From Myxococcales bacterium (GTDB lineage Bacteria; Myxococcota_A; Polyangia; Polyangiales; Polyangiaceae), in the NCBI GenBank assembly GCA_025354825.1, contig JANXMC010000844.1, positions 1 to 43,868 of the forward strand: DNA of 43,868 nt, in the 5' to 3' direction. Positions within the stretch are counted from its first letter, which is position 1, and each line of letters starts with the position of its first letter. Positions 16,528 through 31,921 of the stretch are shown here, one piece after another. The translations under genes were made by a program, and so were the position numbers. Under the pieces are notes generated by a model. The model saw only the letters and a program-made list of their open reading frames with translations. It did not search any database and was not told the origin of the DNA.

Positions 16528-19227
16528 GTGATCGCGCGCGCCTTTCTCGCCGCTGTACTTTTGCTCGCCGCTCCGCCGACGAAGGGGGCGGCCAATGCGG
16601 CCCCTACCAAGTCGGGAGCCCTTGCGACCAAGCCCTCCGCCGCGAAGCCCGCCGCGCCGACGAAGGCGCCGCCGCCGAAAGCGCCTGTCCTCGCGCCAAA
16701 GCCGAGCACGCCTGCAAAGCCGTCGCCCGTCGTCGCGAAGCCTGCGCCGCCGCCGGTGAAGGCCGCCCCGGCGCTTCCACACGGGGCGCCCGTCGTGTCG
16801 CCGCCGCCGAACGCGCCAGTGCCAGAGCCCGCGGCATCGTCGGAGGCTTCCGCCGAGCCGGTCGCGCCGCCTGCGCCCGCGGCGTCCGCTGCACCCGTGG
16901 CATCGAAGCCGGCCGCCCCCGCGGCACGCGCGGCGTCCACGCCCACGAGCTCGGCGGTCGCGGCCGCTGCGCCTGATAAGCCCGCGTCGTTGGCAATCGA
17001 TCTCATTGCCAAAGATCGCGACCGCGCCTGGTTCGCGACAGGGATCGAGCAGGTGATCGGCAACGAGTTCCTTCGATTCCACGCCGTCGAGGCGACGCCT
17101 AAGCTCGATTCGTCGGCGTCGTGTCCAACTCGCGAAGCGCGCTGTCTCGTCGAGGCCTATCGCAAAGCGGGCGTCGAGATCGTCGTCACCGGTGTCGTGA
17201 CCGAGCCCGGCGCCCTCGCCTACCAGGTCTACGAAACGTGGACGGGAGCCAAGGCCTTCGAAGGGGTCCTCGGCACGAGCGGCGTGACGACGTCGATGTT
17301 CGAGCGCGAGGTCGGCCAGCTCGTACGCCCCGTCGTCCAACGCGGGGGGCTTCTCGACGGGCGGCCGTCACGCGCGGCCGCGGAGATCACGGACGGGTCG
17401 TCGACCCCACGAGCGGGCGCGGTGGGCGCTCCGAAGGCGGCCGCGAAGCACTGGTATGTCCTACCGCTCGTCGTTGTCGGCACCGTCGTCCTGGTCGCGT
17501 TTCCGATTCTCCTCGCCCTGCTTCTGGTAGGCGGGCGGCAGCTGGCGCGACGCGAAACTCCGCGGTCGTGGAAGTGGTCGGGCCTCCTCGTGGCGTGCGC
17601 GTCGGGTCTCCCCATTCTGGTGAACGCCGTCGACGTCGATGCGGCCGTAGCGAAGGTCGCTCTTCGCGCGCCGTCGTTCGTCGCATTCGCGCCTCCCATC
17701 GTCGCGGGCGCGCTCTGGGCCGCGTTTGGGCTGCTTTTGGGGCTGTGGCTCTTCGCGCCCGTTCGAGGGTTCGAGCGTGTTCGTCACGATGCTCTCTGGC
17801 CGCTTCTTCGCGCGTGGCTCCTCCTCACACTTCTCCGTTCGGTCGCCCTCCTCGCCGTCTACGGTCCGCTCCTCGCGCTCTCGCTTCGCGCATCCCACGA
17901 CGCCGCCCTCTCCGAACGGACCATCGTCGCCTTCGTCGTCCCCGCCGTGGGTCTACTTCTCTGTTTCGTGATCCTTTCGTTCGTCGACAACCTCACACTT
18001 TATCTCGACGCGAAGCTCGCCGTCTGGCCGCCAACAGAACGCAACCCGTGGCATGCGACCCTTCGTAGATACGTGCAGGGGTACGTGCGGCGCGGCGTCG
18101 TCGAGGTCGACGAAGCGCTCCTCGCGCGAACGCTCTTCCTTCCCGGCACGCGCGGCGACGTCGTGAGCTACGGCGGCGGCTTCGCGCGACCGCGCATCGT
18201 CGTTGGCGAAAAGCCCCTCGAGGCCGCGCTGGGAGAGCTCCCCGACGACGAAGAGCTCGAAGAGCGAAAGGTAAATCCGGAGGAGCTCCCCTTCGGCCTC
18301 GTGGTGCCGTTCCGGCGCGCCAACGACGACCTCGCCGAGCTCGCGCGGTCCGAACGCCTTCGCACGGACGTCACCCGAAGACCGGCCCGCGGCCGTGCCC
18401 CGGTGCCGCGCCTCCTGGGCGAGAACGTGACACTCCTCGGGTGGCTCATGCCGCAGGCGAAGTCCGAAGGGAGCGGTGGCGGATTGCCCCTCATTGCGAA
18501 TACCGAAGAAGACTTCGGCGTCGTGAAACGCCTTCTGGCCGAGCACTATTCGGCATTCCAAGGCGCCCTCGACGACGACGAGGTCGACGACTCCGACCCC
18601 ACGCAAAAAGACTTCCTCTTCGGCCCGCTCCTTTTGGAGCTGGGCGTGATTGCGCGCCACGACACGCTCGTCGCGACGTTTCGGTTGTGCCTCGAGGCGA
18701 TGTGGCCAGGCAACGGCATTTTCTCCCGCCTGTTCCGTCTTCCCATCGCGCTGTACGACCGCCTTCTCGCCTCGCCCGGGCAGCGCGTCGCCGACGCCTA
18801 CGCGGCGTTGAACAGCGCGCTCCACCCGCTGATTCAGTACCTCTGTTTCATGGGCGGGGCAGACACGCGTCTTTTCACCGCGCGCGCGAACTTGCCAATG
18901 CTCGTCGCAACCTCGCGTGGAATGGTGGCCGAGCTCGAAGCCGTGTCCCCCACGGTCGCCTCCGAGAGCCCTGTCCTCGCCAACGCCCGGGCACGCGCCC
19001 GTGACGAAGCACGCGACCGCGTCGAATGGGTCGCGCGCAACTTCCACGGATCGATCTCCCCGACCCGCGTTCGTTGGCTGCGTGCTCTCGGCTCGGTGAT
19101 GATCGCGGCCGCCGTCTGCATCGCCCTGGGGCGCCAGGTCTCGGACGCCATCGCCTACCACCCGAGCTATGTCGATCGAATGAAGTCTCAGCGTACCGTG
19201 CCTAGTGAAGGAGACAGCTCGCGATGA
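16528..19227 (+). CDS. Large polytopic membrane protein heading the six-gene operon
   Basis: 899 residues from GTG at 16528. A signal/anchor segment (residues 2-16) is followed by a Pro/Ala/Lys-rich spacer to about 150, long enough to cross a periplasmic gap. Residues about 155-285 form a compact alpha/beta domain with two Cys (SCPTREARC) and VEIVVTGVVTEPG. Hydrophobic helices follow at about 310-340, 350-372, 388-413, 427-450 and 465-487, and one more at about 855-875. The roughly 360 residues between are soluble, acidic in places and without known motifs. Topology suggests an outer N-terminal domain and a large cytoplasmic loop. Its stop overlaps the next ATG (ATGA). I recognise no family. 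Confidence 0.8.
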   Translation: MIARAFLAAVLLLAAPPTKGAANAAPTKSGALATKPSAAKPAAPTKAPPPKAPVLAPKPSTPAKPSPVVAKPAPPPVKAAPALPHGAPVVSPPPNAPVPEPAASSEASAEPVAPPAPAASAAPVASKPAAPAARAASTPTSSAVAAAAPDKPASLAIDLIAKDRDRAWFATGIEQVIGNEFLRFHAVEATPKLDSSASCPTREARCLVEAYRKAGVEIVVTGVVTEPGALAYQVYETWTGAKAFEGVLGTSGVTTSMFEREVGQLVRPVVQRGGLLDGRPSRAAAEITDGSSTPRAGAVGAPKAAAKHWYVLPLVVVGTVVLVAFPILLALLLVGGRQLARRETPRSWKWSGLLVACASGLPILVNAVDVDAAVAKVALRAPSFVAFAPPIVAGALWAAFGLLLGLWLFAPVRGFERVRHDALWPLLRAWLLLTLLRSVALLAVYGPLLALSLRASHDAALSERTIVAFVVPAVGLLLCFVILSFVDNLTLYLDAKLAVWPPTERNPWHATLRRYVQGYVRRGVVEVDEALLARTLFLPGTRGDVVSYGGGFARPRIVVGEKPLEAALGELPDDEELEERKVNPEELPFGLVVPFRRANDDLAELARSERLRTDVTRRPARGRAPVPRLLGENVTLLGWLMPQAKSEGSGGGLPLIANTEEDFGVVKRLLAEHYSAFQGALDDDEVDDSDPTQKDFLFGPLLLELGVIARHDTLVATFRLCLEAMWPGNGIFSRLFRLPIALYDRLLASPGQRVADAYAALNSALHPLIQYLCFMGGADTRLFTARANLPMLVATSRGMVAELEAVSPTVASESPVLANARARARDEARDRVEWVARNFHGSISPTRVRWLRALGSVMIAAAVCIALGRQVSDAIAYHPSYVDRMKSQRTVPSEGDSSR

Positions 19228-20039
19228 GTGAAACGGAGCCGGAGCGGCAGTCGGAGTTCTTCGAAGTTCTCAACAAGAGCAGGCTCGCCGTCAGCAAGAA
19301 ATCGGCTGGCGCCGGCGTCGTTGGGCTCGTCGGATTCTTCTTGTTGCTCGGCGTTTCAGCCGTCTTTTTCGTGACCGAGAACTTTCTCATCGCGCTCTTC
19401 GGCGCGTCGCTCTCGCTCTTGATTTACGCGACGGGCGCCGAGATCGGAAAGCTTCTCCTGTCGACGATTACGATGTTCTTCTCGTCCCGCCACCTCACAC
19501 CGAAGGCCGCGCAGGTCCAAGAGACGCTCGCCGCCCTCGAAGAGGTGCTCACGCTCAGGAGAAACCGCGAAGGCGAAGTTCGCGTCGGCCCCGTCGAGCC
19601 GGGGATGAAGGTTCGCCTCCCCGACAACGCCCTCGTGCGCGACCTCGTGACGGTGCAAGAGCGAAAGAAGACATACGACTACGCCGAATACGTCGTCCAC
19701 TCCTATTACGTCGAGTGCCAAGAGCTCTACGACCACGCAGGCGCCCACCTCGACTTCGTGTCGGGCTCGATGCCGCTCTTCGGTCTCATGGGGACCGTGC
19801 TCGGCCTCATTAGTATGTTCGACAGCCTCGGTAGCGTCGCCACGGTCGAAGCGATCGCCCCGCAGCTTGCGCTTGCGCTGAAGTGCACGCTGTACGGCGC
19901 GCTTCTTTCGTCGCTGTACAAAATCGCGGCGACGCGCTTCGAGCAGCGCTTAAAGGGGCTCGATTACGACTTCGACACCTTGTGCCGCGCCCTTAAGGTC
20001 ATCTTCGAGAACCAGGCCGTGATCGAGGTGCAGAAGTGA
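19224..20039 (+). CDS. MotA/TolQ/ExbB-like proton-channel subunit
   Basis: 271 residues. Two N-terminal hydrophobic helices (about 28-50 and 54-76), a cytoplasmic segment of about 100 residues, then the conserved pair: DFVSGSMPLFGLMGTVLGLI (about 178-197) and APQLALALKCTLYGALLSSL (about 211-230), followed by a short charged tail. The GLMGTVLGLI block is the hallmark of the MotA/TolQ/ExbB family, whose pentamers surround two MotB/TolR/ExbD helices and convert ion flow into motion or force. Its partner is the next gene. Four-base overlaps at both ends (ATGA, GTGA) indicate coupled translation. It lacks the long C-terminal coiled tail of ZorA. Confidence 0.88.
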   Translation: MSETEPERQSEFFEVLNKSRLAVSKKSAGAGVVGLVGFFLLLGVSAVFFVTENFLIALFGASLSLLIYATGAEIGKLLLSTITMFFSSRHLTPKAAQVQETLAALEEVLTLRRNREGEVRVGPVEPGMKVRLPDNALVRDLVTVQERKKTYDYAEYVVHSYYVECQELYDHAGAHLDFVSGSMPLFGLMGTVLGLISMFDSLGSVATVEAIAPQLALALKCTLYGALLSSLYKIAATRFEQRLKGLDYDFDTLCRALKVIFENQAVIEVQK

Positions 20040-20662
20040 GTCGCGCCCGCGTCACGCGCCAGCGTAAGGCGTTCGACGTTTGGCAGATCGTCTACATCGA
20101 CTTGATGACCAACGTGATGATCTTCTTCGTCGTACTGTGGGCCGTTCAGAGCTCGCCGAAGAAGAGCGGCATTAGCGATACGTTTGGCACCGAGACTGTG
20201 AAGACCGTGAACTTACCGGGCGACGTTCTCTTCTCGGTGGGCAAGAGCGACATTTCCGACAACGGCCATGAAGTGTTCAAAAAACTCTTCGCGGACAGCG
20301 AAACGGTCCTGAACTTCGACACCGGCGGTCTCACGAAACGGATGCTCATCATCCACGGCCACACCGACAACGACGGCCAGAAAGACAAGAACCTCGATTT
20401 AGCGTTTCAACGAGCGCTCTCCACCTACAAAGAGATTGCGAAGTACGGCGCCAACGTCCCCGACCACGTCGTGATCTGCTCCCACGCCGACAACACACCC
20501 GCGCAAGACGTGCCGGCGATGGGCGGCAACCTGTCGCCCGCCGAGCAGGCCGCGGTCGCCGAGGCCAAGGCGAAAAACCGGCGCATCGTCATCGAGGACA
20601 AGCTCGTGAGCCGGGCCACCTCCGGCGTATCGAGCGCGACGAGCACGGTGGGAGCGCCGTGA
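20036..20662 (+). CDS. MotB-like stator subunit with OmpA peptidoglycan-binding domain
   Basis: 208 residues from GTG at 20036. A basic N-terminus and WQIVYIDLMTNVMIFFVVLW give the single MotB-type helix with Asp22 in the position of the proton-accepting Asp of MotB (compare YADFMT). Only about 25 residues separate the helix from an OmpA-like domain: VLFSVGKSDIS, then GHTDN (Asp111) and the FQRA Arg126 that in OmpA-family domains hold diaminopimelate, and the closing KNRRIVIE. So the protein should be anchored in the inner membrane and bind peptidoglycan. The linker and plug are shorter than in flagellar MotB. It pairs with the preceding MotA-like gene. Confidence 0.88.
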   Translation: MSRARVTRQRKAFDVWQIVYIDLMTNVMIFFVVLWAVQSSPKKSGISDTFGTETVKTVNLPGDVLFSVGKSDISDNGHEVFKKLFADSETVLNFDTGGLTKRMLIIHGHTDNDGQKDKNLDLAFQRALSTYKEIAKYGANVPDHVVICSHADNTPAQDVPAMGGNLSPAEQAAVAEAKAKNRRIVIEDKLVSRATSGVSSATSTVGAP

Positions 20663-22263
20663 TCGGCGCTCGTTCGCTCTCGAGCCTCGCGCTCCTCGCG
20701 TTCGCGCTCATCTCGGCGCTCGCGTTGGGGAGCTTTGCGCCCGAGCGGATGCACACGCGCGGCTTCGGCACCTATCTCGCGATTGGGATGTTCGGCATCG
20801 TCGTGGGAACGCTCATGTTCCGCTTTTTCCGTTTGGGAGAGCGGAGCCGCCACTATGTGAGATGGGCCACCGAGCGCTCGGGCTGGGACGTCACCGAAGG
20901 GCACTTCGTCGGCGGCGACACGCGGCGTTTCGTTCTCGGCGAGAGCCGTGAGAACGAAGCGTTCGACTTGCCTTCGTGGCTCCGTCTCGCCATGAGCATC
21001 ACAGTCACGTCGGTCTTGGCGCTCGCAGTCATCGATGGGCGTGCCCTCGCACGCCTAAGCCGCGCCTCGGGCGATGTGACGTCGATGGCTTCGACCTACT
21101 GCCCCGACGAGCTTCCGCCGCCTCCACCCGCGCGGGTGGTGAACGAGCCGGGGTGTGAGCTCGTGCGGCGCGCCTACGCCCTCGGCTACACGAAAACGTT
21201 GGGCGACTGTGCTCCCAAAACGGAGCACACGGCACAGAGCGCACGCCCTATTTGTACACGCAGGCAGCGCGACGAGCCGTGGCTCCACTATTCGTACCGC
21301 CTCTTCACGTCGTCGTTGGGAGGCGTCGTCGGCGCGACGAAGGCGAGCTATTTCACCAAAGCGCGCGACGACTTTCAAGCCCGTGCAAAGCATATCGGCG
21401 CTCTACGCAGCAGCGAAATCGAGATGCTCACGTCGTCGCCCCACGCGTCGCACCATCTCTATACGAACCTGCCCGACCCCAAGAACGGCGCCTTCGAAGA
21501 GACGACGTGCACAAGCCGCTACGCGCGCCTCCCCCACCGCGCCACCCCGCCAAAGGGGCCTCTGCAAGCGAGCCTGGTGTTGGAGCAGGTCGTCGCGCAG
21601 CTGCTCTTCGAGGGGACATACGACGCGTCTGCTGGGCACTGCCGCGAATACCATGTTCATTGGGGAGCGCCCGCCGATGCGTGCAAGCAAATCGCCGCGA
21701 ATCCCGCCGAGTTTCTCAAGAGAGACGGCGCGCTGAACGACGTGCGGCGCACGCTCGATCGCTTCCGCGTCGCCAATGAGCTCACGGCGCTCGGCGAGCC
21801 GAAGCCGACCCTCGAGCCGCCCGCCTTCGTGAGCTTTCAGTGCTACATCGAAGGCGATGCGTCGCCGCGCGCGCGCACGCCGTTCACCCTCGACGGCCAG
21901 GCGTTCACCGCCGACGAGCTTCATGTGAGCCCGTCGCCCGAAGGCGCCGAGCTGTACATCGACAGGTACGACGCCCTCGCGCGCCTGTTCGCGAAGACGT
22001 TTCACTATGGGTATTTGATGAGCGAAGCTGGCGCCGCCGAGCTCGCGGGCGGTGGCGCCACCAAAGAGCTCGAAGCGTCGCTCGCGGGGGCCGACTACTT
22101 GCTCACGCGGTTGTACGAGCTCGAGAGCATCGATATCTATTTGGATCCCGGTTGGCTCGCCTACCGGCCCGATCTCCTCGAGGTGTACCCCTACGAGCGG
22201 CATCTGAAGAACTTCATCGAAGTCTTTCGGCGCGACTACCGGCGCGAACGAGGTCGCCTATGA
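20659..22263 (+). CDS. Three-helix membrane protein with Cys-rich outer region
   Basis: 534 residues from GTG at 20659. Hydrophobic helices at about 6-26, 36-57 and 107-127. Then about 400 residues of soluble sequence with eight cysteines (STYCPD, PGCEL, GDCAP, PICTR, TTCTS, GHCREY, DACKQ, FQCY), consistent with disulfides in the periplasm. The C-terminal part has several aromatic/acidic segments such as IDIYLDPGWLAYRPDL. No family recognised. It begins inside the stop of the OmpA-domain gene and ends in ATGA with the next gene, so it is part of the same machine or pathway. The outer region could contact the stator's wall-binding domain (inference). Confidence 0.78.
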   Translation: MIGARSLSSLALLAFALISALALGSFAPERMHTRGFGTYLAIGMFGIVVGTLMFRFFRLGERSRHYVRWATERSGWDVTEGHFVGGDTRRFVLGESRENEAFDLPSWLRLAMSITVTSVLALAVIDGRALARLSRASGDVTSMASTYCPDELPPPPPARVVNEPGCELVRRAYALGYTKTLGDCAPKTEHTAQSARPICTRRQRDEPWLHYSYRLFTSSLGGVVGATKASYFTKARDDFQARAKHIGALRSSEIEMLTSSPHASHHLYTNLPDPKNGAFEETTCTSRYARLPHRATPPKGPLQASLVLEQVVAQLLFEGTYDASAGHCREYHVHWGAPADACKQIAANPAEFLKRDGALNDVRRTLDRFRVANELTALGEPKPTLEPPAFVSFQCYIEGDASPRARTPFTLDGQAFTADELHVSPSPEGAELYIDRYDALARLFAKTFHYGYLMSEAGAAELAGGGATKELEASLAGADYLLTRLYELESIDIYLDPGWLAYRPDLLEVYPYERHLKNFIEVFRRDYRRERGRL

Positions 22264-22862
22264 ACCGCTCGCTCGCGCGGCTCGCCATCGGCGCGGCATT
22301 CGTTGCAAGCTCTGCGGCGCTCGCGGACGATGCCGCGAGACCGTATGCGCGCGAGCCGCGCGTCGCCCATATTCGCGCGGCGCTCACGGCCATGGCGGCG
22401 GCGCCGCCGGAAACCCTTCGCAAAGCCTACGAGCACGCCCGCGGGGTGGAGCGCGGCGCCTGCTCGGCCGGCTCCGTTCGCCTGCGCGTCGAGTGCCTCC
22501 TCGTCGCGAGCAAAAAGTACTGCAGCGAGACGGCCACGGCGTCGCACGACTGCGCGCTCTACATGGACGTCATCGTGAGCAACGTGCTCGCCGACGAGTT
22601 TTTAATCCCTCGCGAAAAGCGCTACCAAATCGTTCGTACCAATGCCGACTACCGACCGGCCTTGGCCCGTGAGCTTCGGCGCATTCAGGGGACCATGGCC
22701 GTCGACTTTCGCCTCCACGGCAAGGGGACCGGCGGCGACGACGACGCCGAGACCATGGCGAGCAACATCGACCGCTACTGCCGCGGCGCGGCCGACGAGA
22801 GCAACGTGCCCTACCAAATTTGCGTATCGTCTCTCGCCTTTTTCATCAAAGGACCATCGTGA
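22260..22862 (+). CDS. Small exported Cys-rich protein of the operon
   Basis: 200 residues. A Sec signal peptide (AIGAAFVASSAALA-DD) is followed by a helical domain with six cysteines: GACSAG, VECLL, KYCSE, HDCAL, RYCRG and YQICVS, probably three disulfides. It shares the Cys-rich, periplasmic character of the preceding protein and may bind it. The overlaps with both neighbours (ATGA before, GTGA after) place it firmly in the operon. No family recognised. Confidence 0.78.
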   Translation: MNRSLARLAIGAAFVASSAALADDAARPYAREPRVAHIRAALTAMAAAPPETLRKAYEHARGVERGACSAGSVRLRVECLLVASKKYCSETATASHDCALYMDVIVSNVLADEFLIPREKRYQIVRTNADYRPALARELRRIQGTMAVDFRLHGKGTGGDDDAETMASNIDRYCRGAADESNVPYQICVSSLAFFIKGPS

Positions 22863-24046
22863 GCAGTCGCGAGCTTCTCAAGTTTCTCGAGGCCGAGACG
22901 AAGAACCTCAAACAGGCGGGGCTCGTTCGCCCCGAGCTCGTGTTGAGCGGACCACCAGGCCCCGTCGTCCACGTCGATGGGCGCGCCGTGGTGAGCTTCA
23001 CGTCGAGCGACTACCTCGGCCTCGCAACGCACGAAGCTTCGAAGAAAGCCGCGATCGCCGCGATCGAAACGTGGGGAGTCGGCGTCGCATCGACGCGCGT
23101 CGCGGCGGGGACGCTGTCGCTCCATGCCGAGCTCGAGACCGCCGTCGCCGCCCTCGTCGGCACGGAGGACGCGCTGGTGTACCCCAGCGGCCACCACGCG
23201 AGCACGGGGCTGTTCGAATCGCTAGTAGGTGATCGCGATTACGTCTTTTGCGACGACATGATGCGCCCGAGCCTCGCCGACGGGATTCGCCTCTCGCGCG
23301 CCCGCGCCTACGCGTACCGCAACGACGACATGGAGCACCTCGAAGATCGCCTAAAGCGCTCGCGCGCGGCACGCTTTCGAGTCATCGCGACGGACGGCGT
23401 TTTCCCGGCAACGGGGAAGATTGCCAATCTCGAAGCGATCTACGCATTGGCCTCGAAGTACCGCGCGATGGTCGTCGTCGACGACAGCCAAGGCGTGGGC
23501 ATTCTCGGCGGGGGCAAAGGCGCCCACGGCGGCCTCACGCTCAAAGACGGCATCGACGTCGTCACCGGCTCCTTCGGCGCGGCTCTCGGCGGCGGCGCGG
23601 GCGGCTTCGTCGCAGGGAAAAGTACAGTCATTGCGTGGCTTCGGCAGACGTCGCGCGCACACCTCGCGTCGACCGCGCTTTCGCCCGCGGCATCGGCCGT
23701 GGCGCGCAGCTGCATCGAACTCGTCCAGCGCGAGCCCGGCCTCCGCCGCGCTCTCGACGCGAACCTGGAGACGTTCAAGGCGGCGATGGCGAAGGACGCA
23801 GGGCTCCTCGTCGACATCACCCACCCGGCGATCTCGGTTCTCGTGCGCAACGCCGTGTCGGCCCAGCGCCTCACGGACTACCTCTTTCGAAACGACATCT
23901 TCGTCATCGGCTACTGCCACCCCGTCGTCCCCGAGGGGGAGGCGCGCATTTCGATCCGAATCACGGCAAGGCACACGCAGGAGCAGCTCGAACGCGCAGC
24001 GAAGGCCATCGGCGATGGCATGAAGGAGCTACAAATTCAGCTCTAA
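22859..24046 (+). CDS. Alpha-oxoamine-synthase (KBL-like) protein lacking the PLP lysine
   Basis: 395 residues from GTG at 22859, with AAAGGA upstream. It aligns along its length with 2-amino-3-ketobutyrate CoA ligase and related alpha-oxoamine synthases: FTSSDYLGLATH, a RVAAGTLSLHAELE block, TDGVFPATGKIANL, VVDDSQGVGILG, then GSFGAALGGGAGGF, WLRQTSR, and the C-terminal PVVPEGEARISIR. In the family GTLGKALGG carries the lysine that binds PLP; here the codon at 23579-23581 is GCG, Ala241. The His of DDSH is also replaced by Gln (211). It is therefore probably a non-catalytic or altered-chemistry homologue, as LCB1 is in serine palmitoyltransferase. No complete partner enzyme is encoded nearby. 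It is the last gene of the operon. Confidence 0.88.
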   Translation: MSSRELLKFLEAETKNLKQAGLVRPELVLSGPPGPVVHVDGRAVVSFTSSDYLGLATHEASKKAAIAAIETWGVGVASTRVAAGTLSLHAELETAVAALVGTEDALVYPSGHHASTGLFESLVGDRDYVFCDDMMRPSLADGIRLSRARAYAYRNDDMEHLEDRLKRSRAARFRVIATDGVFPATGKIANLEAIYALASKYRAMVVVDDSQGVGILGGGKGAHGGLTLKDGIDVVTGSFGAALGGGAGGFVAGKSTVIAWLRQTSRAHLASTALSPAASAVARSCIELVQREPGLRRALDANLETFKAAMAKDAGLLVDITHPAISVLVRNAVSAQRLTDYLFRNDIFVIGYCHPVVPEGEARISIRITARHTQEQLERAAKAIGDGMKELQIQL

Positions 24047-24063: not shown

Positions 24064-25305
24064 TCACCACGCGAGGGCTTTTCGAATCTCGGTCGTGAGC
24101 GTCGCCGCCATCACCTGCGCCCTCTTGCGGCTCGGATGGTAGTCGCACCCGAGTCCTGCATCGGCCGCGTCTCGCACATCGATTTTCACGTAGTGAACGC
24201 GCGTATCGCCAGATGCCGTCATGCCGTCGACGACCGCCTTCAAATAGCCATTTGCGATATCGAGCCTCCCTTCGTTTGCGGGATAAGAGTTCGAGAGCAT
24301 CGGACTCGAGGCCGCGAACAAGTGCGCCTTGGGGTAGTGCGCGCGGAGCTTGTCGAAGAAGGCCCGGTACGCGCCGGTGAACTCCGTTTTCCCGGGGATC
24401 GTGTGGCCTGCGTCGAAGTCGTTCGTCGACAAATTCACAACCACGGCATCGGGGGCATACGCCGTGAACGGCCACGCGTCGGTCGCGCGCGTGGGGAGAG
24501 CTTTTTGCGCGAGCGCGGGGACGAGGTTCTCCGCGCGAAGGTCGCCGTCGTTGTTGCGATAAACGCCGCGCCCCGACCAACACTGCGTCACGACCTCGGC
24601 CCCCAGGGCCGCCGCTGCGAGTGTGCCGTAGGCGAGCGTGCCGTTTTCCGTTCCCGTCGTGAAATGGCAGGTTTCGTTCGCGCCTTCGATGCCGTAGCCG
24701 CAGGTAATCGAGTCGCCGACCATCTCGATCGTTCGCCCGCTCGCATTCGGCGGCGCGAGAAGCACGCCCGCGCCGAAGTCGAAGCCGAGGAAGAGATCCT
24801 CGCCGACGAACGCTTCGGTATCGCGCGTCACGCGCACCGTGTGCTCACCCTCCGCGAGGCCGGTCGCAACGACGTACGACTCGTGGGTCGGGTCGACCTC
24901 AAGGCGCGGCTTGAGCACGCCGTCGACGACGACCGTGAAGTGGTTATGCGCATTCGGGTCGGAGGCGAAATCGCGGAGCTTGAGTGTCACCGATGTTCCT
25001 CGAAAGCGCGCGACCACCGCCGATCCGGTCCACGCGAAACGAGCCCCCTCGGCCTCCGGCTCGAAGCGCCCGACAAGGCGCACCGACGGCGCCGCGTCCA
25101 CAGACGCTCCCCCATCCGCGATCACGGTTGCATCTTGGGTTGACGCGTCAACCGAGGGACCAGGCGGGGCGGGCCGCGCGACATCGCCTGCGACGCCGCC
25201 GTCGCTTGGCGCGTTGGTGTCGTCGCTCGACGAGCACGCCGCCACTGTGCTTGCGGCGACGAGCAGAACGACTGCCGATACCAACCGAACGAAGGAGCGC
25301 GTCAT
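24064..25305 (-). CDS. SGNH/GDSL esterase lipoprotein, carbohydrate esterase family 2-like
   Basis: 413 residues from ATG at 25305. Lipobox AASTVAAC, Asp/Ala/Gly linker, a jelly-roll-like N-terminal domain (FEPEAEGARFAWTGSAV..., about 85-190), then the SGNH domain: GDSITCGYG with Ser199, LSTNDF (block III) and CDYHPSRKRAQ with Asp388/His390. Jelly roll plus GDSL with GDSITCGYG is the CE2 arrangement, whose members remove acetyl groups from polysaccharides such as xylan or glucomannan. It is likely an outer-membrane-attached esterase acting on environmental or matrix glycans. It is convergent with the operon (17 bases) and divergent from the DUF4398 gene. Confidence 0.9.
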   Translation of the reverse strand: MTRSFVRLVSAVVLLVAASTVAACSSSDDTNAPSDGGVAGDVARPAPPGPSVDASTQDATVIADGGASVDAAPSVRLVGRFEPEAEGARFAWTGSAVVARFRGTSVTLKLRDFASDPNAHNHFTVVVDGVLKPRLEVDPTHESYVVATGLAEGEHTVRVTRDTEAFVGEDLFLGFDFGAGVLLAPPNASGRTIEMVGDSITCGYGIEGANETCHFTTGTENGTLAYGTLAAAALGAEVVTQCWSGRGVYRNNDGDLRAENLVPALAQKALPTRATDAWPFTAYAPDAVVVNLSTNDFDAGHTIPGKTEFTGAYRAFFDKLRAHYPKAHLFAASSPMLSNSYPANEGRLDIANGYLKAVVDGMTASGDTRVHYVKIDVRDAADAGLGCDYHPSRKRAQVMAATLTTEIRKALAW

Positions 25306-25430
25306 GGTGAAGAGTCTACGGCCGCGAGCGCTCGTGAGAGCGCGCGGAAGATGGTCACCCCATCCGCGGGCCGTGCTATTTTTCCGGAGCCTTATCGCGA
25401 ACGCAACACCTACACGTGAGGTTCGAATCG

Positions 25431-25781
25431 ATGCGAAGCGCTTGGATTGCAACGGGCGCAGCCCTCTTCGTCAGCGGCTGCGGCGCAAGCTTCCCCACGC
25501 CATCGGAGCGGCTCGCACAGGCCGAGTCGGCGTCGCGCGGAGCAAAAGAGCTTGGCGCCGAGAGCGAGCCGAATGCGTCGCTCCATTTGAAGATGGCGAA
25601 CGATCAGATCAAACAGGCGAAAGACCTAATGGAGCGCGGCGACAACAAGCGCGCCGACGCGCTCCTCGTTCGTGCCCAGTCCGACGGCGAGCTCGCGCTC
25701 CAAATGGCCAAAGCGGCAAAGACGCGCGCAGAGGCAGACGAGCTGATTGCAAAGGTGAAGTCGATGCGAGGTGGCAAATGA
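25431..25781 (+). CDS. DUF4398-like small lipoprotein
   Basis: 116 residues from ATG at 25431, preceded by GAGG nine bases upstream. Lipobox ALFVSGCGA (Cys near 18). The mature part is a helical hairpin with the pattern SLHLKMANDQIKQAKDLME and ADALLVRAQSDGELALQMA, typical of DUF4398 proteins, which commonly precede OmpA-domain lipoproteins. Its stop overlaps the ATG of the OmpA gene (ATGA), as is usual for this pair. Probably an outer-membrane lipoprotein that works with the next product. Confidence 0.85.
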   Translation: MRSAWIATGAALFVSGCGASFPTPSERLAQAESASRGAKELGAESEPNASLHLKMANDQIKQAKDLMERGDNKRADALLVRAQSDGELALQMAKAAKTRAEADELIAKVKSMRGGK

Positions 25782-26686: not shown

Positions 26687-29600
26687 ATGATGCCTCTTCG
26701 CTTACCTGCTTCTAACCCGCCCGCTCCGCCCGGCTCGGAGATGGTGGCGACGGCCGCGGCCGAGCCGAGCGACGACGAGCTCACGCGCCTCCGCGCTCTG
26801 CTCATCGACGGTCGCACGCTCGATGTCTTCGCAGCGTGCTCCGCCTACGCGCCGTTCGAGGCGTGGCGCTCGCACGATGGCGCGAGCCTCGCCGCAAGTC
26901 TTGTTGGCGATCTCGGCGCCCCGAAACGAGCCCTCGCGCTCCGTCTTGCGGCGGTGCGGCGAGGCGCGCCGTCCGCGGCGCGCGACGTCTTACGGGTCAC
27001 GCTCCGCTTCGTCTTCCGCGGCCCGGTCGACGCGCTTGGCGCGATCCGCGAGGCGCGCGCGTCGGCCACGTACGAAGGCGCGACCGACGACGACCGCGCA
27101 AATCTCTTCGAGCTCGAAGGGCTCGCGTTGGGCGCGCTGCGCGACTTCGATGCCGCGCGGCGTGCCCTCACGCTCGCCGAGCCGTTCGAGTCGAAGCCCC
27201 AGGCGCTCTCCTTCGCGCGGGCTCGCATAGCTCTCGCTCAAGATCGCTACGACGAGGCGCTCGCCGAAGCGCGACGGGCGCACGAGGCGCATCGAAAGCA
27301 TCCGGGCGCCGCGCTTCTCCTGGCGCATCTCTACGAGATACGAGGCGCGACGGACGACGCGCTGTCGCTCCTCCGCGCGACGGCGGAGACGACGCAATCG
27401 GCCGATGTCGCCGGTGCCCTCGCGACGCTCCTCGAAGACCGAAAACTTTGGGACGAACGTGCCTTTTGGGTCGAGCAGTGGGCAGCGCGCTCGCCGCTCC
27501 TCGAAGACCCCCATCGCCTAACCGGAATGCGCGCCGATGCCGCCTACGATCGCGGCGACCACAAGAGCGCACTCGCGCTCGCCCGCACCGTTCCGGCCGG
27601 TTTCCACGCGCGGGTCGCCGAGCATCTCGCGGCGGCCGAGGCCGGCGCCCCGGCAAAGCGCGTGATGCTCGACGTCCCCTTCGTTCGCCAGCACCACATG
27701 ACGTGCGCGCCGGCAACGCTTTCGGCCATTGCGACGTATTGGGGTATGCGCGCCGAGCACCTCGAAGTGGCCAATGCGATTTGCTACGACGGCACGCCGA
27801 GCCATAGCGAACGAACGTGGGCGGAGACGAATGGGTTCGCCGTTCGCGGTTTCACGGCAACGTGGGACTCGGTCCGCGCGCTGCTCGATCGCGGCGTGCC
27901 GATGACGGTGGTGACGGCGACGGCCGCGAGCGCGCACTTGCAGGCGATCGTCGGCTACGACGAGCACCGCGGCACGCTTTTTCTGCGAGATCCGTTCATC
28001 CCACGCACGATCGAAGCGCTCGCCGTGGAGTGGCTCGCGACGTGGCAGGCGACGGGCCCTCTCGCGATGGCGATGGCACCCGAGAGCGAGCGGTCGCGGC
28101 TCGACGGCGTGGTGCTCCCCGATGCGCGTCTGCACGATCTCGCCTACGCGACCAACGCGGCGCTCGCGCGCCACGACCGGGTTGCGGGAGTTGCGGCGCG
28201 CGATGCGCTCGTCGCAGAGGGCCCCGACCACAGGCTCGCGATCGCGGCGCGGCGAGCGGTCGCGGCATACGATCAAGACGTCGAGGGTGTGCTCGCCTGC
28301 GCGCAGGCCCTCGCCGCCCGTTGGCCCGATTTTTCGGCAGCCCGCATCGATGCCCAGTGGTGCCTGCGCGCCGTGCGCCCACGTCGCGACGCGCTCGCGG
28401 CGTCCGAAGCGCTCTACGCGGCCCACCGCACCGAGTCGCTGTACGCCGAGGAGCTCGCGCGCGATCTCGCGACCGACGCGCGAGAGCATCCGCGCGCCTC
28501 ACGCCTGTTGCGAAAGGCGATGGCGGCGCGGCCCGACCGCCACGGACCCGTGCGTCAGCTCGCCGACGTCCGTTGGTCGCAGCGCGCGTTCGACGACGCG
28601 CTGAGGCTGCACCGCATCGCCGCATGCCTCGGGCAGGCCGACGAAGACGCGGCATGGGGCTACTTCGAGGCGGCTCGCGCGCTGGGCCGCACGGACGAAG
28701 CCGTGGCCCACCTCCGCGGCCGCCACGAAGCGCTCGGACCGCGAAATGCGCAGCCGTCGATGACGCTCTCGAAGGCGCTCGATGCGCTCGGCCAGGCGGA
28801 CGAAGGGTTCCGCGTGCTCGATGATGCCCTCGCGGCCCACCCGGCCGACGGCGTGCTCCTTCTGTTCGTCGCCGAAGCGCGCGCATCGTTCGGCGATGTC
28901 GACGGGGGGCGGGCCCTCGTCGCGAGAGCGCGCCCCTTTGCAAAAGAGGCGGCGTGGCTTCACGCAGCGGCCCATATCGCGCTTCACGCGGGCGACGCGA
29001 AAGAGCGCGAGGGGCTTCTCGCGCGTCTCATCGCCCTCGAGCCGCTCAACGTGAAGGCCCACTACGCCTATGCAACGTCGCTTTCGTCGACCGCGGGCGT
29101 GGCGGCGGCGCGTGCCCATCTCGAGGCGGCGTGGACGAAAGCGCCGCACCATCGCGGCCTCGCGCAGGCGTGCCTGCTGGCGGTCCGAGCCGCGGGCCCA
29201 AGAGAGCTCGAGGCGACGGCGCGCAAAGCGCTCGACCGCGACGTCGCCGACGCGTCGGCCCACCTGGCGCTCGCGCGCGCGCTCGTGGCAGCGGGGCGCA
29301 TCGAGGAGGCCCGCGCCTCGATCGACAGCGCAGCACTTCTCGAGCCCCACAGCGCCGCGGTCGATCTCGCTCGATTCGCGGTGCTCCATCGCGCGGGCGA
29401 CGCGGCGGGGGCACGCGCGGCGCTCTTTCGCGCGCTCGCCCTCGAGCCCGACAGGCCCGGACTCATTGCCGAGCTCCTCGCCGCTCACGGCAACGGCGCC
29501 GAGCGCGACGCGGCTCTCGAGGGCGCATTCCGCGTGGTGGCGCGCGCGAGCGTAACGGGCGATGGGATCGCGGCCTACGTGGCGTGCGCCGAGCAGTCTC

Positions 29601-31921
29601 GCGACCCCAAGGCGCTCCTCGCGACGGTCGAACAGCTCCGCGCCGAGCGCCCGGCGATCGCGGCGACGTGGCTCTGCGCCGTGCGTCAGCGCACACGCTG
29701 CGGCGACGACGACGGCGCGAAAGCGCTCGCCGACGACGCCTGCGCGCGCTTCCCGCTCGTGGCCAATGTCTTCGCCGCCCGCGCCCACGCGTATTCCGCG
29801 GCGGGGGGTGATGTCGAAGCGCTTCTCGCGCTCGAGCGGGCCGTGGAGCTCGCGCTCCTCGATGAAGGGCACGTCCTCGCCCTCGCGAACGCGCTTCGTC
29901 ACGCAGGGCTCGAGGCGCGCGCGAGGGAGACGCTCACGCGCGCCATCGGGCGTGTCCCGTCGAGCGCTGCCCTTCGGCGTGAGCTCGCCGAGCTCGAGTG
30001 GGCGTCGGGTCACGAGGCCGATGCGCGCCTCGCGCTCGAAGGGGCGCTCGCGCTCTCGCCCGACGAGAACGCGAGCTACGTCCTTCTCGACAGGATGGAT
30101 TCGTCGCACTCGGGCGTGGCGCGTGATCGCGAGCGCGATCCGACGCTGGCGCGACTCGAGGCGCTCGCACAGGAGCGCCCGTGGAGCGCAGATCTCTTCG
30201 TCACCCTCGCGCGGACGCACGCGCGGCGAAGCGACGGCGCGGCCGCTATCGTCGCGCTCAAACGTGCCCTCGACGCCGACCCCATGATGCTCGAAGCGCA
30301 CGAGCTTCACGCGACGTTCCTGGCAATCGTCGGCCGCCTCGACGAAGCCCTCGAGGCGAGCTCGCCCGCCGCGCTGGCCTTCGACATGCCCCGCGAGCTG
30401 CGCGGGCGACGCGCATGGGTGCTCGCACGAATGGGCAATCGCGCCGAAGCGATCGCGGTCATGCGCACGCTCGTGTCCGAGCATCCGGGCTACCTCTGGG
30501 GCGCTCAAGAGCTCGCGCGGTGGCTGCTCGAAGACGGGTCGCCCATCGAAGCGCTGGGCGTGTTGAAAGAGTCGGCCGCAACCCGTCCCGACAGCGCCGC
30601 GGCCCACGTGCAGCTGGCGTTCGGGCTCCTCGAGGTGGGCGATCGCGTAGGAGCGAAGAGCGCGTTCATTCGCGCCGCATCGCTCGATAGGCGCGACGTG
30701 ACGGCCCACGACGGGCTCTTCGATCTCGCGCTCGACGACGGCGACGTGGCCGCTGCGCGCGACGCGATCGAGGCAATTCGTGCGCGGTCGGGGGAAGACA
30801 GCGCGCTCGCCACAGTCCACCAGGGGCGCCTCGCGGCAAGTATGGGCGACGGCCCCGGCGCGATTGCGGCGCTCCGCCGCGCCGCGCTCGACGCAAACGT
30901 CCCCATCGCAATCTTCGACGGCCTCCGGCGCGACTGCATCACGGCGGGGTTCGGCGTCCTCGCCGACGAGGCGTTCGCCGAGCTGCTCTTCGAGCCCAAA
31001 GCGATCGCCGAAGTCGGTGTCTACTGGGCCGCCACGCGCGTAGCCGTCGGCGAGCTGCCGCGCATCGGCACGGCGATCTCGGCGATGGGGCCTCGCTCGA
31101 GCGAAAATCCCACCCTGCCCGCCGTCGCCGCCGCGGCGTTCCAGTGGCTCGGCCACCTCCGCGCGAGCGACGCTCGCGAGCGGTACCGCGCGGCCTACGT
31201 GCTGTCGAAGAACCTCGGCCCCGTCGATGATGCTCTTTGGGGCGAAGTCGGTGCGGCGTTCGCGGCCTCCGGCGCGAGTGAGGACACGGTGCGCTGGATG
31301 CGCGACTGGCGCACGCGCCCGAACGCGTCGGCGCAGGCCCTCAGCCACCTCGCCCACGCGCTTCGCGATTCGTCACGCGCCGACCTCGCCCTCGAGGTCA
31401 CCCTGCACGGCGCCGCCATCGAGCCCGCGGGCAACGAGGTGAACCCGCTGCGAACGTGGGCCGCCTACGAGCTGGCGATGCGCGGCCGCCCCGACGAAGC
31501 GGCCCCGTGGCTCGATCGCACGGGCAATCTCACGGCGCAGCCGAACCTGCTCACACTTTTCTATCTCTCGCGCGCAGTGGTGGTCGCAAGCTCGCCCGCG
31601 CTCTCGCGATTCGTCGCCTTTCAGCGGGCAAGCACGCTGCTCGCCTTGGCGAAGAACAGCTCCTCCCAAGCGTTCCTCGACGAAGCGCACGCGCGCGCCA
31701 CCTACCGCATCGGCCTCGAGCTCGGGATCTTCCTCGCCCCCTTCTTCCGCTTTCGCGAGCGCCTCACCACCATCCTCGTGACCCTCGTGGTCGTCGCGCT
31801 CGTCGCGTTCAACGCCGCAGCCTTCGGCGCCGTGCTCGAAAAGATGGGATACCCGATCATCATGGTTTCGATATTTGCCATTCGTTGGGCCATCTCCCGA
31901 AAAACGAAGGGGGCGTCGTGA
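26687..31921 (+). CDS. Giant TPR protein with embedded C39-like cysteine peptidase domain
   Basis: 1744 residues from ATG at 26687 (26690 is an equivalent ATG). No signal peptide. Residues about 80-320 and 470-1660 are TPR-type helical repeats (patterns such as AHLALARALVAAGRIEEAR and GAAIVALKRALDADP). Between them, residues about 325-460 form a C39-like peptidase domain: DVPFVRQHHMTCAPATLSAIA gives Cys340, ASAHLQAIVGYD gives His417 and FLRDPF gives Asp435, a full Cys-His-Asp triad. A hydrophobic C-terminal region (about 1693-1735) offers one or two membrane helices. C39 domains cleave leader peptides after Gly-Gly. Here the domain is not part of an ABC exporter, so the substrate is unknown. 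The stop overlaps the next GTG. Confidence 0.88.
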   Translation: MMPLRLPASNPPAPPGSEMVATAAAEPSDDELTRLRALLIDGRTLDVFAACSAYAPFEAWRSHDGASLAASLVGDLGAPKRALALRLAAVRRGAPSAARDVLRVTLRFVFRGPVDALGAIREARASATYEGATDDDRANLFELEGLALGALRDFDAARRALTLAEPFESKPQALSFARARIALAQDRYDEALAEARRAHEAHRKHPGAALLLAHLYEIRGATDDALSLLRATAETTQSADVAGALATLLEDRKLWDERAFWVEQWAARSPLLEDPHRLTGMRADAAYDRGDHKSALALARTVPAGFHARVAEHLAAAEAGAPAKRVMLDVPFVRQHHMTCAPATLSAIATYWGMRAEHLEVANAICYDGTPSHSERTWAETNGFAVRGFTATWDSVRALLDRGVPMTVVTATAASAHLQAIVGYDEHRGTLFLRDPFIPRTIEALAVEWLATWQATGPLAMAMAPESERSRLDGVVLPDARLHDLAYATNAALARHDRVAGVAARDALVAEGPDHRLAIAARRAVAAYDQDVEGVLACAQALAARWPDFSAARIDAQWCLRAVRPRRDALAASEALYAAHRTESLYAEELARDLATDAREHPRASRLLRKAMAARPDRHGPVRQLADVRWSQRAFDDALRLHRIAACLGQADEDAAWGYFEAARALGRTDEAVAHLRGRHEALGPRNAQPSMTLSKALDALGQADEGFRVLDDALAAHPADGVLLLFVAEARASFGDVDGGRALVARARPFAKEAAWLHAAAHIALHAGDAKEREGLLARLIALEPLNVKAHYAYATSLSSTAGVAAARAHLEAAWTKAPHHRGLAQACLLAVRAAGPRELEATARKALDRDVADASAHLALARALVAAGRIEEARASIDSAALLEPHSAAVDLARFAVLHRAGDAAGARAALFRALALEPDRPGLIAELLAAHGNGAERDAALEGAFRVVARASVTGDGIAAYVACAEQSRDPKALLATVEQLRAERPAIAATWLCAVRQRTRCGDDDGAKALADDACARFPLVANVFAARAHAYSAAGGDVEALLALERAVELALLDEGHVLALANALRHAGLEARARETLTRAIGRVPSSAALRRELAELEWASGHEADARLALEGALALSPDENASYVLLDRMDSSHSGVARDRERDPTLARLEALAQERPWSADLFVTLARTHARRSDGAAAIVALKRALDADPMMLEAHELHATFLAIVGRLDEALEASSPAALAFDMPRELRGRRAWVLARMGNRAEAIAVMRTLVSEHPGYLWGAQELARWLLEDGSPIEALGVLKESAATRPDSAAAHVQLAFGLLEVGDRVGAKSAFIRAASLDRRDVTAHDGLFDLALDDGDVAAARDAIEAIRARSGEDSALATVHQGRLAASMGDGPGAIAALRRAALDANVPIAIFDGLRRDCITAGFGVLADEAFAELLFEPKAIAEVGVYWAATRVAVGELPRIGTAISAMGPRSSENPTLPAVAAAAFQWLGHLRASDARERYRAAYVLSKNLGPVDDALWGEVGAAFAASGASEDTVRWMRDWRTRPNASAQALSHLAHALRDSSRADLALEVTLHGAAIEPAGNEVNPLRTWAAYELAMRGRPDEAAPWLDRTGNLTAQPNLLTLFYLSRAVVVASSPALSRFVAFQRASTLLALAKNSSSQAFLDEAHARATYRIGLELGIFLAPFFRFRERLTTILVTLVVVALVAFNAAAFGAVLEKMGYPIIMVSIFAIRWAISRKTKGAS

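Follow-up and report, generated by a model that had tools for sequence, protein, structure and literature searches.

A KBL homologue lacking the Schiff-base lysine in a rare six-gene motor operon: a probable pseudoenzyme

Few pseudoenzymes with a PLP fold are known, and among the alpha-oxoamine synthases the main known case is eukaryotic LCB1. Active-site contacts have been described for catalytic members of this family. In CnKBL, a KBL, the Schiff base is formed by K246 and the cavity includes N52, V81, H138, H215, L274, F275 and R370, and an engineered K-to-A enzyme (K246A) retains PLP together with the substrate or product bound to it (excerpt of PMC9814548). Bacterial serine palmitoyltransferase (SPT) uses a stacking His138 together with Asp210, His213 and Ser273 (excerpt of PMC10196870). 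Rv3778c from Mycobacterium tuberculosis, a PLP-fold protein without a Schiff-base Lys, is thought to be noncatalytic, according to the excerpted text of PMC12910592.

A homologue of KBL is encoded in the window, the whole stretch of 43,868 nucleotides analysed here (contig JANXMC010000844.1 of a Myxococcales bacterium). Its gene (GTG start, TAA stop) codes for 395 amino acids and is the sixth and last of six same-direction genes that span positions 16528-24046 on the + strand:

16528..19227, + strand: 899-aa membrane protein, first gene of the operon, with six hydrophobic segments by simple hydropathy and no Pfam or PDB relative
19224..20039, + strand: MotA/TolQ/ExbB proton-channel homologue, 271 aa (PF01618, 5.3e-15)
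20036..20662, + strand: MotB plug plus OmpA-like protein, 208 aa (PF13677, 2.3e-7), with a YIDLMT membrane motif and a match to the ZorB profile
20659..22263, + strand: 534-aa protein with three hydrophobic N-terminal segments, without a family match
22260..22862, + strand: 200-aa protein, probably exported (N-terminus judged by eye), without a family match
22859..24046, + strand: KBL-like alpha-oxoamine-synthase homologue without the Schiff-base Lys (probable pseudoenzyme), carrying R136, Q211, S238, A241, A270 and S365
23579..23581, + strand: codon 241, GCG (Ala), in the Schiff-base Lys column (sequence and alignment)

All five junctions of the operon are 4-base overlaps, and the frame of the KBL homologue is coupled to the upstream gene. 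Its third-position GC (0.83) is like that of the other five genes (0.80-0.85). The second and third genes combine a MotA_ExbB domain (PF01618) with a single-span B subunit (PF13677) that bears a membrane Asp (YIDLM), the features of an ion-driven motor, for which a 5:2 stoichiometry would be assumed by analogy with the MotA/MotB family. This Asp is kept in five of six aligned MotB-like rows, the sixth being cut before that stretch. When compared with the Zorya systems, the MotB-like protein matches the ZorB1 profile (1.4e-14), the MotA-like protein has no PADLOC match, and none of the other four operon proteins has any PADLOC match, ZorC, ZorD and ZorE included. Profile searches gave no solved relatives of the 899-, 534- and 200-aa proteins, and Pfam scans of two of these three returned nothing except one 0.023 match in one member. 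Downstream, the window carries a convergent gene for a GDSL/CE2-type esterase (24064-25452, - strand) and a 1744-aa ORF (26687-31921, + strand) that by eye appears rich in TPR-like repeats.

The KBL homologue belongs to the alpha-oxoamine-synthase fold family, with matches to 54 solved chains at E<=0.001 and to PF00155 (1.2e-35). Among solved structures it is most similar to KBLs (3tqx, 313.5 bits; 1fc4, 288.1 bits), with matches that cover almost the entire protein, although it falls below the curated KBL cut-offs of NCBIfam (373.6 vs 460 for NF005394, and 336.4 vs 493 for TIGR01822). AtLCB1 is not its closest relative (134 bits vs 313 bits for KBL), and the parallel with LCB1 drawn by the first-pass annotation is therefore one of function only, not of sequence closeness. 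Threonine dehydrogenase (TIGR00692) has no match in the same genome above the cut-off, a cut-off that just two of 14 control genomes pass.

To locate the literature contacts in the window protein, we aligned the sequences and counted from the Lys position, which gives S50, T79, R136, D208, Q211, A241, L269, A270, S271 and S365 in the contact columns. The Lys motif reads VTGSFGAALGG and the DDSH region VVVDDSQGVG, with Gln211 encoded by CAA, so that the KBL-like fold with Lys replaced by Ala, and the change of DDSH to DDSQ, are as the first-pass annotation described them. In the alignment, the Schiff-base column holds Lys in all five relatives from similar operons, in 35/35 KBL rows and in 9/9 rows of other alpha-oxoamine synthases. 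The annotation had listed A241 and Q211 correctly and had overlooked four further changes in active-site columns invariant elsewhere (H136R, T238S, F270A and R365S). Lys, the stacking His, Phe and Arg, all of them invariant in the 35 KBL and nine other family rows, are all absent from this protein, which has A241, R136 and S365 where every KBL row has K, H and R. Asp208 and Ser271, the latter aligned to the phosphate-contacting Ser273 of bacterial SPT, are still present, as is Leu269. AlphaFold models were too poor (pLDDT 39 and 36) for the site or a dimer to be checked in them. That the Ala codon is a sequencing or assembly error is hardly credible, even in an assembly fragmented into 859 contigs, because at least two bases must change to turn AAA or AAG into GCG and because four other active-site columns are altered independently.

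The MotA-like protein was used as a marker in the search for further operons. It is present in four of 289 genomes of the class (the window, and loci L041-L045 and L073), so the operon is rare. Besides the window's own genome, the carriers are three genomes that belong to a single second family within the class, making up 3/30 genomes of that family and 3/35 of its order, and together they hold five further copies (two in G248, two in G250 and one in G256). A draw of the phylum gave 1/377, the window's own genome, the second-family carriers having been either missed or absent from the draw. Plasmids yielded two partial matches (35%) and viral contigs none; the 534-aa protein matched one of 108 genomes of its family, namely its own. 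The gene order of the window is repeated in L041-L044, and the KBL homologue is in place in both G248 and G250. L041 has all six genes, the first of which is aligned in part only, and the first gene of L044 can be aligned only in short pieces. In G256, one contig stops after MotB and another carries the terminal part of the 534-aa gene together with the 200-aa gene and the gene for the KBL homologue, and the two contigs presumably join into one operon copy. G248 (L042, L043) and G250 (L041, L044) each contain two diverged copies, type A (GTFGKA) and type B (GTFSKA). Two peculiarities were seen in these loci: the MotB-like protein of L044 (8629-9276) has a long C-terminal tail of repeated KPGET/KPGDA units, and the KBL homologue of L041 (2606-3751, - strand) lacks one residue in the run of glycines right after the Lys motif (GTFGKALGAGGG).

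The five KBL homologues of these operons keep Lys, the stacking His, Thr, Phe and Arg in every case. They also have Leu in place of the DDSH His (5/5), Gln or His at N50, and Pro at S183. The first-pass annotation had taken Ala241 and Gln211 as one event and had asked whether both are conserved in operon orthologues, Lys in these being the outcome that it named against itself. The two sites have separate histories. Since the His of DDSH is missing from all five relatives as well, its change predates the split of the known operons and is ancestral in the operon family, the loss of His being shared and the residue being Leu rather than Gln. The loss of Lys, stacking His, Phe and Arg is private to the window lineage. 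The presence of Lys in 5/5 relatives disposes of a conserved family without Lys; the observation of a Lys-less protein itself stands.

No second Lys-less operon copy was found in the data, and the genus is represented by this genome only, without close orthologues. A scan of genome contigs gave one Mucilaginibacter sequence (36%) with its Lys intact. A family-level search gave matches at E<=1e-60 in 60 of 98 genomes, and among the matches with loci, whose motifs were read, Lys is present in all 29 outside the window. A DNA pattern for the Lys-to-Ala motif, restricted to Ala and the allowed flanking letters, matched 13 loci in 13 of 317 class genomes, a reversed control matching other genomes at a comparable rate; of these 13, the locus in the window is the only one that codes for a member of the window protein's family.

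A loss confined to one lineage could mark the beginning of general decay, in which the operon no longer needs the enzyme and catalysis is lost first, with the rest to follow. This explanation is unlikely but carries some weight, as the Lys-less protein is known from one genome only, no close relative was found, and it differs at 59 of the 167 positions that are invariant among the five operon relatives. Against it, the frame of 395 codons is intact and coupled to the upstream gene, its third-position GC is like that of its neighbours, its branch is not longer than those of Lys-bearing relatives, and its changes cluster at the active site. A tree of 28 rows (the window protein, the five operon relatives, 13 of the 35 KBLs and nine other members) places the window protein as sister to the operon relatives (100/97), a placement to be taken with caution because the tree tool flagged its branch as long. 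From the printed lengths, this branch measures 1.04; the paths leading from the same node to the Lys-bearing operon relatives add up to about 0.85 to 1.28, and the window protein is overall no faster evolving than these. The clustering was tested on 79 columns that do not vary among the five operon relatives and that show the same residue in at least 95% of the KBL rows. The window protein differs in 14 of them: five of the seven documented PLP or substrate contacts (H136, T238, K241, F270 and R365 changed, D208 and S271 kept) and nine of the other 72 (Fisher p = 0.0015). The enrichment varies with the contact set, from p = 0.016 for four residues and 0.0015 for seven to 0.066 for a wider set of fourteen. 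The aligned columns and branch lengths thus support, with this qualification, the statement of the first-pass annotation that the changes would not be random decay.

A partner would be expected if the protein were an LCB1-like non-catalytic subunit, pairing with an alpha-oxoamine synthase that has the Lys and is encoded at another locus, and completing or regulating its site. This is improbable, although LCB1 offers a precedent (excerpt of PMC3794620) and Ser271 and Leu269 are kept. As the first-pass annotation said, no LCB2-like, Lys-bearing partner is encoded in the operon. The assembly has two other family matches, both with Lys and both elsewhere (a profile search again gave three in total), but they are distant (28% and 35% identity); one, on C627, has BioF-like features by reading, and the other, on C479, adjoins ketosynthase-like ORFs. 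Phe270 has been lost, and the operon relatives need no partner, because each carries its own Lys.

Alternatively, the altered pocket (Arg136, Gln211, Ser365) could serve another chemistry, as a Lys-free PLP enzyme or as a cofactor-free acyl-CoA enzyme. Asp208 and Ser271 are kept, the pocket is altered in all operon members (N50 to Q/H/S, S183 to P, and the DDSH His to L/Q), and KBL K246A binds PLP-substrate adducts (excerpt of PMC9814548), and yet the loss of the PLP-stacking His and the substrate-cavity Arg removes the contacts known to serve PLP-dependent amino-acid chemistry, which makes such a reshaped enzyme quite improbable. Binding is a separate matter: the window protein could still bind PLP, because the laboratory-made Lys-to-Ala KBL holds PLP adducts. 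Alpha-oxoamine-synthase catalysis is very unlikely, judging from residues, because the Schiff-base Lys, the stacking His and the substrate Arg that the known chemistry needs are all gone.

The reading that we favour, and hold to be moderately probable, is that the protein is a pseudoenzyme derived from a KBL-like PLP enzyme, that its gene belongs to a rare six-gene operon encoding an ion-driven envelope machine of the MotAB/TolQR-like kind, and that it has been retained for a task other than catalysis at this motor. This role is inferred because selection has kept the frame and the body of the protein, and because the operon relatives keep the gene in place; the protein is probably a structural or regulatory part rather than an enzyme. 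A KBL-type body, probably a dimer, would persist because, for example, it serves as a soluble scaffold in the cytoplasm, acts as a clutch on the MotA-like ring, or senses a ligand resembling PLP or CoA. The same protein may, in relatives that carry Lys, join such a task with catalysis, which the window lineage would have dropped. More tentatively, and with rather less than even probability, the KBL-type protein may be a permanent, non-catalytic component of an ion-driven envelope motor not yet described, revealed by a lineage that dispensed with catalysis and kept the protein. A literature search found no published description of a Lys-less KBL-type protein in a motor operon, or of an operon of such composition. 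The selective loss in a bacterium, with Lys-bearing counterparts in the same operon, offers a natural experiment that separates catalytic from structural roles. The operon, in turn, suggests a motor of unassigned purpose that includes a part resembling a metabolic enzyme, and may itself be the larger unknown.

When set beside the described systems, the window protein resembles KBL (glycine C-acetyltransferase) over its full length (313 bits for 3tqx, 374 bits for NF005394), but it stays below the curated cut-off (460), its Schiff-base Lys, stacking His, O3' His, cavity Phe and substrate Arg are all replaced, and its gene sits in a motor operon. It shares with LCB1/SPTLC1 of eukaryotic serine palmitoyltransferase the condition of a Lys-less alpha-oxoamine-synthase member, whereas LCB1 pairs with a Lys-bearing LCB2 and the window operon holds no such partner. 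Rv3778c, a cysteine-desulfurase relative, belongs to a different branch of PLP enzymes. As in Zorya (ZorA/ZorB), MotAB and TolQR, the operon places a MotA/TolQ-like channel gene beside a gene for a MotB-plug/OmpA-like protein; unlike them, it adds three family-less membrane or envelope proteins and a KBL homologue.
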